This document shows positions 28,233-31,458 of a stretch of DNA of 41,947 nt, one piece after another. The stretch's first letter is position 1; every line of letters starts with the position of its first letter. Location of the stretch: NCBI GenBank assembly GCA_904419385.1, contig CAJFRI010000005.1, positions 1 to 41,947 of the forward strand, read 5' to 3'. Source of the DNA: Candidatus Heteroscillospira lomanii. Its GTDB lineage: Bacteria > Bacillota > Clostridia > Oscillospirales > Oscillospiraceae. Both the position numbers and the translations under genes were made by a program. Below the pieces are notes generated by a model. That model had not been told where the DNA came from, ran no database searches, and saw only the letters and a list, made by a program, of their open reading frames with translations.

Positions 28233-28308
<76 letters not shown>

Positions 28309-28402
28309 CAATAGAAGAGTGCACTCCTCTCGGGATCGAAAGGCGGCTCTTGGAAACATGCCGGCGGCATGTTTCAACCGCCGTGGCTTTTCAGCGGAAA
28401 AG
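28309..28402. mobile_element. Palindrome-rich segment A following tRNA-Phe (putative mini-element or att scar)
   Basis: A 94-bp non-coding segment between the two copies of the tRNA-Phe 3' end. It holds an 11-bp inverted repeat (28353-28363 with 28365-28375) inside an outer GGCGG/CCGCC pair (28342-28346, 28378-28382), and a second hairpin CTTTTC-AGCG-GAAAAG (28387-28402) that abuts the second copy. Whether it moves is unknown. Confidence 0.5.
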
Positions 28403-28423
28403 CGATTCCGACCGGAGGCACCA
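28403..28423 (+). repeat. Duplicated 3' end of tRNA-Phe (21 nt)
   Basis: Identical to 28288-28308, from the T-loop (CGATTCC) through the acceptor strand and CCA. There is no matching 5' half before it, so it is a remnant, not a tRNA gene. Confidence 0.9.
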
Positions 28424-28426
28424 TAT

Positions 28427-28502
28427 GCGGGCGTAGCTCATCCGGTAGAGCGCCACCTTGCCAAGGTGGAGGTAGCGAGTTCGAGCCTCGTCGCCCGCTC
28501 CA
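28427..28502 (+). tRNA. tRNA-Gly (GCC)
   Basis: Acceptor GCGGGCG/CGCCCGC, anticodon stem CCACC/GGTGG around GCC, discriminator T, CCA encoded. Its last 30 nt (28473-28502) are repeated exactly at 28615-28644. Confidence 0.97.
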
Positions 28503-28614
28503 ATTTCAAGCGGGAGTTTCCGTGGCGAGAGCTCGATGCCTCCACCTGCGCTGCAGGCGCATTTGGAACACGGAGGTGCGGGGCCCTCGCGAAACGGAGT
28601 TTCGCGGGGTGCGA
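28503..28614. mobile_element. Palindrome-rich segment B following tRNA-Gly (putative mini-element or att scar)
   Basis: A 112-bp non-coding segment between the two copies of the tRNA-Gly 3' end. It contains a strong hairpin (28585-28609, CGCGAAAC/GTTTCGCG core) just before the second copy, and CCTGC-GCT-GCAGG further left. AGCGGGAG near its left end can pair with the acceptor strand of the second copy. The layout parallels segment A, but the sequence is different. Confidence 0.5.
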
Positions 28615-28644
28615 TAGCGAGTTCGAGCCTCGTCGCCCGCTCCA
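28615..28644 (+). repeat. Duplicated 3' end of tRNA-Gly (30 nt)
   Basis: Identical to 28473-28502: end of the variable loop, whole T-arm, acceptor strand and CCA. No 5' half precedes it. Confidence 0.9.
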
Positions 28645-28956: not shown

Positions 28957-31458
28957 ATGAAAAGAACACTCGCACTTGTGCTTGCTCTCGTCATGGCGAT
29001 CGGCCTGATGGCTTTCCCTGTCAGCGCTGACTTCACCGATGACGCAGATATCAAGTACACCGAGGCTGTTGATGTCATGTCCGCTATCGGCGTCATCAAT
29101 GGTTTCGAGGATGGTTCCTTCGATCCTGATGGCTATCTCACTCGTGAGCAGGCCGCCAAGGTCGTTGCGTACCTCATGCTCGGCGCTGAGGATGCCGATG
29201 CGCTGAGCGCTTCCAGCGCTCCGTTCGACGATGTCGCCGCCAACCGCTGGTCCGCCGGCTACATTGCCTACTGTGTCAATGAGGGCATCATCAATGGCCG
29301 CAGTGACACCACCTTCGATCCCACCGGCAACGTCACTGGTTACGAGTTTGCCAAGCTGATGCTCGGCTGCCTCGGCTATGACGGCGCTATCGAGAAGTAC
29401 ACTGGCGCTACCTGGAACATCAACGTTGCCAAGACCGCTCTGACCGTCGGCCTGTTCAGCGGCAACCGCGGCGCCAACTACAACGTCCCCCTCACCCGTG
29501 AGGAGGCCGCTCTGTACGCCTTCAACATGATCCAGGCTGACCTGGTCGACTACGACAACCGTGGTTCCGAGATCGACCTCGGCAATGGCGTCACCATCAA
29601 CACCGGCGCTTCCAAGGCTCAGCCCATCACCTCTGCCAACGAGTATTCTACCATCGATGATGAGCTTGCCGATAAGGACAAGGAGGACAACAACCTCTAT
29701 GTCATCCAGTTCGCTGAGCGCTACTTCGAGGATCTTGAGAAGTCTACTGCTTCTCCCGATGCTTTTGGCCGTCCTTCCGTCAACTGGGAGTATGACAATG
29801 ATGATGTCGGTACTTACTCCGATACCGCTGACATCACCTATACTGTGAAGACTGAGGGCAGGGACATCTATGATGACCTTGGCGAGCCTAGCAAGGGCAC
29901 CTTTGAGATCTGGGTTGATGGTGACGAGAACGCTAAAACCGATATTACTACCGGTGACATTGATGATCTTGATGTTGATGACAAGATCGGTGGAAACGGT
30001 GCTCTGATCGAAGTCTATGAGATGGACAACGATGAGTATCGTATCGTTATTATCAACACCTATGTCGGCGAAATTACTGACTGGATCGAGGCCGACGAGG
30101 ACGACGATGTCAAAGAGGCTGTTACTATTGGAACTGTCAAGGCCGATGCCCCTGTTCCTGGTGACTTTGCTGACGACGGCAATTTCGAGACCACCAAGTT
30201 CGATGAGGACGATGCCGACGACAACACTGTTGTTCTTTACACCGCTGCTAAGAATGATGATGGCAAGTACGAGATCAAGTCTGTCGATGTGGCTGAGATC
30301 GTGACTGCTACCCCGACCCGTTTCACCGCTGGTAAGAGCTTTGTCGCAGGCGGCGAGACCTATAAGTACGCTGATAAATATGTTAAATCCTCTGAGGTTG
30401 GCAAGACTGCAGTCGACAATGATGAGGATATCGACATCTACCTCGACAGCTATGGCTATGTTATCTACACCGATGCCACTGGCTCTGACGATGTCGACTA
30501 TGCTCTTATGATCGGCATCGATGAAAGCGGCGAGGCATTCTCCAAGGATGAGCTGATTGTTAAGCTCCTGCTTGCCAATGGTGAGGTCGTTGTCGCCGAT
30601 GTTGATGAGAAGAACTCTGATGAGGATCTGAAGAGCGGTAGCAAGACTCCCGCTATCGTTTCTTACACTGTCGACAGAGACGATGAGTATGCCATTCATG
30701 TAGAGAGCTCCACTGTTGAGGATGCTTCTGAGCTCAAGGTAACCAAGGGTAGCGCCCGTATCAGCATTGACAACGATGACGATTACACTGCCAACAGCAA
30801 GACCGTGTTCTTCGTTGCTGAGAAGGTTTCCGGCAATAAGGATTCCGATTACGATGCTTACATCGGCTATAAGAATGTTGCTTCTCTGTCCAATCGTAGT
30901 GATGATACCGACTACATCGTTGTGACAGATGGCGATCGCATAGTTGCTCTTTATGTTGCTAACGCCAGAAGTGCCAGCACTTCTTCCGACGATTACGTCG
31001 CTGTTGCTGTTGACGCTAATGCTAGCAAGCAGTACGACTCTGACCTCGGTTACTATTATGAGTTTGACGTTGTCAATGGTGACAGCATCGAGACCATGAT
31101 GTTCTCTGAGAGCCTCGCCAAGACCATGGGTCATGGTGGCTCCAATGACGTCATAGCTGTGCTCTCCAGCATCACTGTTGATGATGAGGGTGTTGTGACT
31201 GACGCTGACATCGAGAAGAACGGTGAGAACGACTTCTACCAGGGCACTGGTACTGGCCGTGTCGAGGATGAGCTGATTACTCTTAATGGCAAGTCTTATG
31301 CTTACGCAGATGACTGTGCTGTTTATAAGATGAATGAGGACGCTGAGTGGAACACTTCTTCCATCAACAGTATCCGCAGCAACGGCAATGATCGTGTCGC
31401 TTACATCCTCGATGAAGATGGTGTTGTTACCAACATCTACATCCGCGAGGTTAAGTAA
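28957..31458 (+). CDS. Large acidic SLH-domain protein, probable major S-layer protein (833 aa)
   Basis: A secreted surface protein: signal peptide at residues 1-24 (MKRTLALVLALVMAIGLMAF, PVSA cut), then three SLH domains at about 25-76, 89-142 and 150-200 (FDDVAANRWSAGYIAYCVNE is the clearest). The following 630 residues are very rich in Asp and Glu, with Val/Thr/Tyr beta-strand patterns and no catalytic motif, as in calcium-binding S-layer assembly domains. It has a near-consensus promoter, a hairpin leader, an optimal ribosome site and codon use that avoids ATA; the base composition is also less GC-rich than neighbours. All suggest abundant expression as the main lattice protein. No linked SLH-wall polymer genes are seen. 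Confidence 0.92.
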   Translation: MKRTLALVLALVMAIGLMAFPVSADFTDDADIKYTEAVDVMSAIGVINGFEDGSFDPDGYLTREQAAKVVAYLMLGAEDADALSASSAPFDDVAANRWSAGYIAYCVNEGIINGRSDTTFDPTGNVTGYEFAKLMLGCLGYDGAIEKYTGATWNINVAKTALTVGLFSGNRGANYNVPLTREEAALYAFNMIQADLVDYDNRGSEIDLGNGVTINTGASKAQPITSANEYSTIDDELADKDKEDNNLYVIQFAERYFEDLEKSTASPDAFGRPSVNWEYDNDDVGTYSDTADITYTVKTEGRDIYDDLGEPSKGTFEIWVDGDENAKTDITTGDIDDLDVDDKIGGNGALIEVYEMDNDEYRIVIINTYVGEITDWIEADEDDDVKEAVTIGTVKADAPVPGDFADDGNFETTKFDEDDADDNTVVLYTAAKNDDGKYEIKSVDVAEIVTATPTRFTAGKSFVAGGETYKYADKYVKSSEVGKTAVDNDEDIDIYLDSYGYVIYTDATGSDDVDYALMIGIDESGEAFSKDELIVKLLLANGEVVVADVDEKNSDEDLKSGSKTPAIVSYTVDRDDEYAIHVESSTVEDASELKVTKGSARISIDNDDDYTANSKTVFFVAEKVSGNKDSDYDAYIGYKNVASLSNRSDDTDYIVVTDGDRIVALYVANARSASTSSDDYVAVAVDANASKQYDSDLGYYYEFDVVNGDSIETMMFSESLAKTMGHGGSNDVIAVLSSITVDDEGVVTDADIEKNGENDFYQGTGTGRVEDELITLNGKSYAYADDCAVYKMNEDAEWNTSSINSIRSNGNDRVAYILDEDGVVTNIYIREVK

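Follow-up and report, generated by a model that had tools for sequence, protein, structure and literature searches.

The window, a stretch of 41,947 nucleotides opening contig CAJFRI010000005.1 of Candidatus Heteroscillospira lomanii (Oscillospiraceae), carries two adjacent tRNA genes on the plus strand, each followed by a short segment that ends in a copy of the tRNA 3′ end. The gene for tRNA-Phe (gaa; 28233–28308) is the host of element A, which as inserted occupies 28309–28423 (115 bp with the second copy counted). The last 21 nt of the gene (T1; 28288–28308) recur exactly 115 bp downstream as T2 (28403–28423), a copy of tRNA-Phe nt 56–76. Between the two lie a left arm, T′ (28319–28337), which is an imperfect reverse complement of the tRNA-Phe 3′ end, and a conserved 66-nt core (28338–28403) composed of GAAA, stem P2 (28342–28346/28378–28382) with the apical P3 (28353–28362/28366–28375), GTG and P4 (28386–28392/28397–28403). 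The gene for tRNA-Gly (gcc; 28427–28502) hosts element B (28503–28644; 142 bp with T2 counted). Its last 30 nt (T1; 28473–28502) are copied exactly 142 bp downstream as T2 (28615–28644). The left arm of element B (approximately 28509–28547) is an imperfect reverse complement running from the anticodon stem of tRNA-Gly to its 3′ end, with a 27-nt stretch matching at 78% (28464–28490 of the tRNA against 28521–28547); its core possesses an apical hairpin (28547–28561) and a second hairpin just before T2 (28585–28609). All these features are on the plus strand. Downstream of the tRNA array, an 833-aa ORF (28957–31458) begins with a signal-peptide-like stretch followed by an S-layer-homology-like domain, as read by eye.

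The two exact repeats had been described in an earlier note on this DNA, together with palindrome-rich intervals and a hairpin directly before each second copy, and all of these were found again. The probability of 21- and 30-nt matches arising by chance within a few hundred bases is negligible. Folding of the intervals beats that of shuffled sequences when the second copy is counted (z −5.7 for A and −2.8 for B), and the hairpins abut the second copies at 28386–28403 in A and 28585–28609 in B. What the note missed is that the tRNA end also stands, imperfectly and as its reverse complement, at the start of both segments; the second copy thus forms one strand of a long outer stem. Its statement that the interiors are unrelated is correct for the core sequences, which differ, but not for the layout, which is common to A and B: an outer T′/T2 stem, an apical hairpin and a hairpin abutting T2. 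An assembly artefact, which it had named as a possible source of the repeats, is contradicted by the occurrence of the same layout in independent assemblies, including those of the cultured strains Agathobaculum desmolans ATCC 43058, A. butyriciproducens DSM 100391 and Butyricicoccus pullicaecorum DSM 23266.

Searches with a covariance model of core A revealed that elements of this type (type A) are not confined to the window but dispersed through its whole family, being present in 57 of 300 genomes and 35 of 106 genera; a single genome yields as many as 12 hits. In the order, 24 of 245 genomes carry them, and in a 398-genome sample of the phylum only the window's own genome matched. A pattern scan of named genomes placed carriers in Oscillospiraceae, Agathobaculum, Butyricicoccus, Pseudoflavonifractor and Intestinimonas. 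Most distinct type A hits (91 of 114) lie less than 400 bp 3′ of a tRNA or tmRNA gene on the same strand, in one orientation. Their hosts comprise ten tRNA kinds and tmRNA: Tyr (42 hits), Ser (11), Val (8), Phe (7), Asp (6), Arg (5), Pro (4), Gln (4), Ala (2), Lys (1) and tmRNA (1). The remaining 23 include a few antisense or weak hits and several located behind a free or displaced tRNA 3′ fragment. At L093, L109/L150, L163 and L081 the elements follow such a free-standing fragment with no tRNA body upstream; probably, it represents the far end of an island inserted in the tRNA gene above the element.

Copy number per tRNA also varies. Tandem arrays of two or three units with repeated spacing and terminator were observed at L095, L097, L115, L137 and L182, for example in A. 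desmolans ATCC 43058. There is usually no gene cassette per unit; genes are found between copies at L104, L121 and L127, where two or three elements downstream of tRNA-Tyr are separated by 0.5–4 kb of gene-bearing DNA. This arrangement resembles a small cassette hot spot, and one of the loci has a second tRNA-Tyr.

Each unit folds as T′ arm, core hairpins and T2, and is inserted between the CCA of an intact tRNA gene (T1) and T2. In type A, T2 is a direct copy of tRNA nt 56–76, often with a terminator after it, and T′ is the reverse complement of nt 57–65, sometimes extended to the complement of CCA, so that the fullest copies begin with TGG. The core order is constant (GAAA, P2 with apical P3, GTG, and P4 directly before T2), GAAA, CTCTTRG, CAA and GTG are conserved as unpaired bases, and GTGG precedes P4 in nearly all copies. 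The junction on the T2 side is fixed at C56 in the T-loop, and the other one varies, lying at or beyond the tRNA end. Target duplications measure 21 nt in the window, 25 nt in a genome of the same genus (G001) and approximately 75 nt, terminator included, at L089. A terminator usually separates the tRNA from the unit. In some cases it duplicates the terminator behind T2 and in others it does not; inserted units therefore differ in size, and a single simple mechanism may fail to account for every case.

Covariation in the type A stems is strong, with two-sided changes in 26 of 30 pairs. Cells changed on both sides number 442, whereas shuffles gave 109 and slid pairings no more than 70; only 35 are changed on one side, a ratio unlike that of slow evolution through G-U pairs. 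Simultaneous change of both strands would produce such a ratio (PMC8794818, PMC7202029). Covariation of this strength alone is no proof of a functional RNA, since copying between stem arms can yield it. In the inner stems, G-T mismatches outnumber A-C ones (17 vs 6, p 0.035), a hint of selection on a transcript.

Several variants accompany the main type. Subtype A2 (GAAAGGCCGTTAAG...GGCCGTGGGA), observed at L095, L096, L097 and L102, has a second conserved hairpin module (GACGCATCC..GGATGTGGA) after T2. At L100 (G139:C8), far from any tRNA, there are tandem repeats whose common part is only the apical hairpin GGAAACATGCCGGTGGCATGTTTC; the apical loop CCGGTGG is found again in several core types. 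A survey of the tRNA genes of two genomes (G013 and G278) revealed further core types with the same layout. Type C, with three hairpins and approximately 105 nt, lies behind many tRNAs of G278 with host-matched arms; it occurs in 18 of 300 genomes, and its hosts are Arg, Leu, Ser, Glu, Gly and Pro tRNAs. Type A is more frequent in genomes that carry C (9 of 18, versus 48 of 282 other genomes, p 0.002), which fits both a shared mobilising factor and a clade effect. In the type B group the left arm reaches into the anticodon stem, and similar units are located behind Pro and Met tRNAs of G278 (L292 and L287). Decayed half-copies and remnants are common, as at the Asn, Arg and Val tRNAs of G013. 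A repeat family unrelated to these elements was also noticed in the window's genome (L051:547–690 and 13 further matches): it starts right after the CCA of many tRNA genes, reads CGTCGGAGCAAAGTCC...GACGTC TTTTT followed by a conserved tail, and showed no T2 copy.

Comparison of the same tRNA array between relatives yielded exact empty sites and differences between congeners. In G071, element B is present and element A is absent: the CCA of tRNA-Phe directly joins TATGCGGGCG, the sequence that follows T2 in the window. Relative to this site, the window contains a 94-bp insertion and a 21-nt duplication of tRNA nt 56–76. A second exact empty site is provided by tRNA-Tyr in genus g66, where CCA is followed by AAAATCCCGAATGC... 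in G066, and the filled sites of G144 and G201 read CCA, a different terminator, T′, core, T2 and the native terminator (the exact comparison is G066 against G144). In the congener G001, element A sits in the same place behind tRNA-Phe, and its core is found again behind tRNA-Tyr, flanked by the arms of that tRNA. The tRNA-Gly of the same array lacks element B in G001, which carries B behind another tRNA-Gly; the counterpart of that gene is empty in the window's genome (G000), so that the presence and absence of B are reciprocal between the two congeners.

The arms follow the tRNA behind which the core resides. T2 matches its own tRNA at 17.1 of 20 positions (11.9 ± 0.2 with tRNAs permuted), and T′ at 7.30 of 8 (5.89 ± 0.09). 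The distal part of T′ scores 4.62 against 3.95 ± 0.10 permuted, which is significant for the set, with a partial match in most copies. Six different 66-nt cores were found letter-identical behind different tRNAs with arms matching each host, and two of the six are pairs within one genome. The pair in G013 has arms GTGGATTC/GAATCCAC at tRNA-Tyr and AGGGATTC/GAATCCCT at tRNA-Gln; the pair in SVLR has ATGGATTC/GAATCCGT at tRNA-Tyr and ACGGACTC/GAGTCCAT at tRNA-Val. Identical cores with arms altered for each host indicate that the arms follow the target, and they rule out slow compensatory evolution as the source of the matched arms. The two SVLR copies also resemble each other in the spacer left of T′, suggesting that T′ was exchanged between two retained flanks. 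Some copies (e.g., L194 and L088) have a perfect T2 and a T′ that fits another tRNA; they look like insertions that preceded arm correction. Two simple origins of the inverted arm were also considered and rejected. T′ is not a direct copy of the 5′ strand of the T-stem, as at L075 the tRNA reads GTTGG where the arm reads GTCGG, which truly complements the 3′ strand. Fold-back on the native terminator fits L077 and L095; it fails as a general origin because a non-native terminator precedes the arm in G144.

Taken together, we estimate at roughly 0.6 the probability that A and B are two core types of small (~95–150 bp), non-coding, non-autonomous mobile elements confined to tRNA and tmRNA 3′ ends, a reading that rests on sequence comparison. 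A class of non-autonomous mini-elements had been one of two suggestions of the earlier note, and it is supported by the spread across the family, by sites found exactly empty, by elements present in one genome and missing in another, and by identical cores at different tRNAs. Movement in trans, which that suggestion included, is compatible with the data, yet no trans factor emerged among neighbour genes or from transposase association. A length of 95–150 bp leaves no room for a gene inside the elements. When 524 ORFs from element loci were clustered, no neighbour gene recurred, the only repeated families being spurious ORFs over tRNA-Tyr, ABC transporters and common paralogues, and no related autonomous transposon was seen in element loci of up to 8 kb. 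Mobilisation by IS200/IS605 or RAYT enzymes, suggested by GTGG and GAAA at the hairpin feet, was rejected: the Y1 transposase domain (PF01797) is unassociated with carriage (24 of 57 carriers versus 80 of 243 non-carriers, p 0.22) and absent from several high-copy genomes. No element matched viral contigs, phages or plasmids. Against Rfam 15 there was no match at the gathering score, and at E ≤ 5 only tRNA, a T-box elsewhere and sub-threshold chance hits appeared. Patchy presence, common remnants and accumulating tandem copies favour a passenger or selfish nature over a role for the host, although the cores are conserved across genera to a higher degree than a pure passenger would be.

We hypothesize that the core would be copied, probably in the form of a folded single strand, and that the copy would enter a new tRNA gene at two sites that all tRNAs possess, the T-loop TTCGA and the CCA end. 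This step would duplicate nt 56–76 and leave the tRNA gene working. As both junctions lie in tRNA-universal sequences, the restriction to tRNA genes could be due either to an enzyme recognising these sequences or to template switching driven by microhomology. DNA polymerase would then fold back on the neighbouring target copy and so build or correct the left arm (quasipalindrome template switching), which we regard as the most likely way of rewriting the arms. Fold-back correction of quasipalindromes is established in E. coli (PMC7202029), and template switching has been proposed to create and maintain RNA hairpins (PMC8794818).

Several other explanations share part of this evidence. The elements could be host-beneficial structured RNAs that arise when transcription reads through from the tRNA. 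T′ could pair with either T1 or T2, making the RNA a tRNA-maturation switch or a decoy, and selection together with horizontal transfer would have spread the units. The strong covariation, the conserved unpaired bases, the G-T excess on the sense strand and the fixed orientation behind the tRNA are what such RNAs would display. However, presence is patchy even between congeners, one genome harbours truncated remnants, tandem copy number is free, identical cores stand behind different tRNAs, and a terminator usually intervenes between tRNA and unit; we therefore consider this unlikely. It is slightly less probable still that the mini-elements are mobilised in trans by a tyrosine integrase or another tRNA-island recombinase, with the folded T′/T2 stem serving as a single-stranded attachment site like attC. 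The T-loop junction, the tRNA and tmRNA targets, the folded palindromic ends and the co-occurrence of types A and C would suit such an enzyme; however, site-specific integration imports the donor's tRNA end, whereas here T1 and T2 are both of the recipient type after jumps to another tRNA kind, target duplications vary between 21 and ~75 nt, and the co-occurrence may be a clade effect. We view as very doubtful a third reading, in which the elements are retro-mobile RNAs using cell tRNAs as primer or acceptor, T′ corresponding to a primer-binding site that reverse transcription rewrites at each jump. In retroviruses, the primer-binding site is complementary to the tRNA 3′ end and is replaced when the tRNA changes; likewise T′ is complementary to the tRNA 3′ end and follows the tRNA. 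Unlike retroviruses, the tRNA-end elements have no known reverse transcriptase or long element, and tRNA priming is not known from bacterial retroelements; if true, this reading would mean tRNA-dependent retro-mobility in bacteria.

Replication template switching alone, acting between tRNA loci with the universal T-loop and CCA as microhomology and requiring no dedicated enzyme, also appears unlikely, though somewhat less so than these. It accounts for junctions in sequences common to all tRNAs and for T1 and T2 always being the recipient's, and quasipalindrome correction is an established process in E. coli (PMC7202029). Nevertheless, it should work in all bacteria, yet type A was found only within this order, and the core folds are kept across genera. 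Parallel scars of deleted islands, the other suggestion of the earlier note, found no support. A duplicated tRNA 3′ end is indeed the island signature (PMC4383910), and a few copies are located at a displaced tRNA fragment (L093, L109 and L163). However, more than 100 copies with common conserved folded cores and a fixed T-loop junction speak against it, as do the same cores behind many different tRNAs, an inverted copy of each tRNA end, which would not be expected of a scar, and empty sites without any island; we find this reading scarcely credible.

Usual mobile elements have fixed ends and a fixed target, whereas here one core occurs at many tRNA genes and its ends are those of the target. 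If the preferred reading of small mobile elements is true, they would constitute a self-adapting class of minimal mobile DNA that spares essential genes, and each genome would offer natural replicates for measuring how hairpins are built by template switching or by an enzyme. The cultured carriers in Agathobaculum, Butyricicoccus and Pseudoflavonifractor make it testable. A word-matching search of the literature returned no earlier description of such elements, and the family is apparently undescribed.

Integron attC sites are imperfect palindromes with a conserved fold and variable sequence that occur in tandem arrays. The elements share all of these traits, but usually have no cassette gene per unit, and their arms follow the host tRNA. 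In a MITE the terminal inverted repeat is constant across copies; here T′/T2 changes with the host tRNA. Like REP/BIME and the GTAG/CGTC-tagged repeats (PMC3733652), the elements are short, non-coding, multi-copy, hairpin-forming and non-autonomous, and GTGG before P4 recalls, as a resemblance only, the GTRG tag at the hairpin foot of REP/RAYT palindromes. Unlike REP/BIME, they are confined to tRNA ends, have host-matched arms and a long target duplication, and show no link to a Y1 transposase. The mitochondrial repetitive hairpin-forming and double hairpin elements (PMC2800124) also form hairpins, show compensatory changes, lie close to tRNA genes and may be mobile, but they are organellar, and the consulted passages on them report no tRNA-end duplication. 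Quasipalindrome template switching (PMC7202029, PMC8794818) makes imperfect inverted repeats perfect in one step and can create hairpin stems; it is, however, a mutational process that alone moves no core to a new tRNA. As in tRNA/tmRNA islands (PMC4383910), an intact tRNA is followed by a duplicate of its 3′ end, the junction falls in the T-loop/T-stem, and tmRNA is also a target. Unlike islands, the elements measure ~0.1 kb, contain neither gene nor integrase, and copy the tRNA end in both inverted and direct orientation. The classical logic, by which an island carries its own tRNA end, does not explain the three T copies following a new host: where cores are identical, each of the three (T1, T′ and T2) fits the new host, and no donor-borne tRNA end was found. 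Islander discards candidates below 2 kb or without an integrase (PMC4383910), so elements this small would have been missed, and the omission of such small candidates by standard island finders may explain why they were overlooked. Compared with known small mobile repeats, the confinement to tRNA genes and the target-matched arms would, judging from the genomes compared, be the new features.
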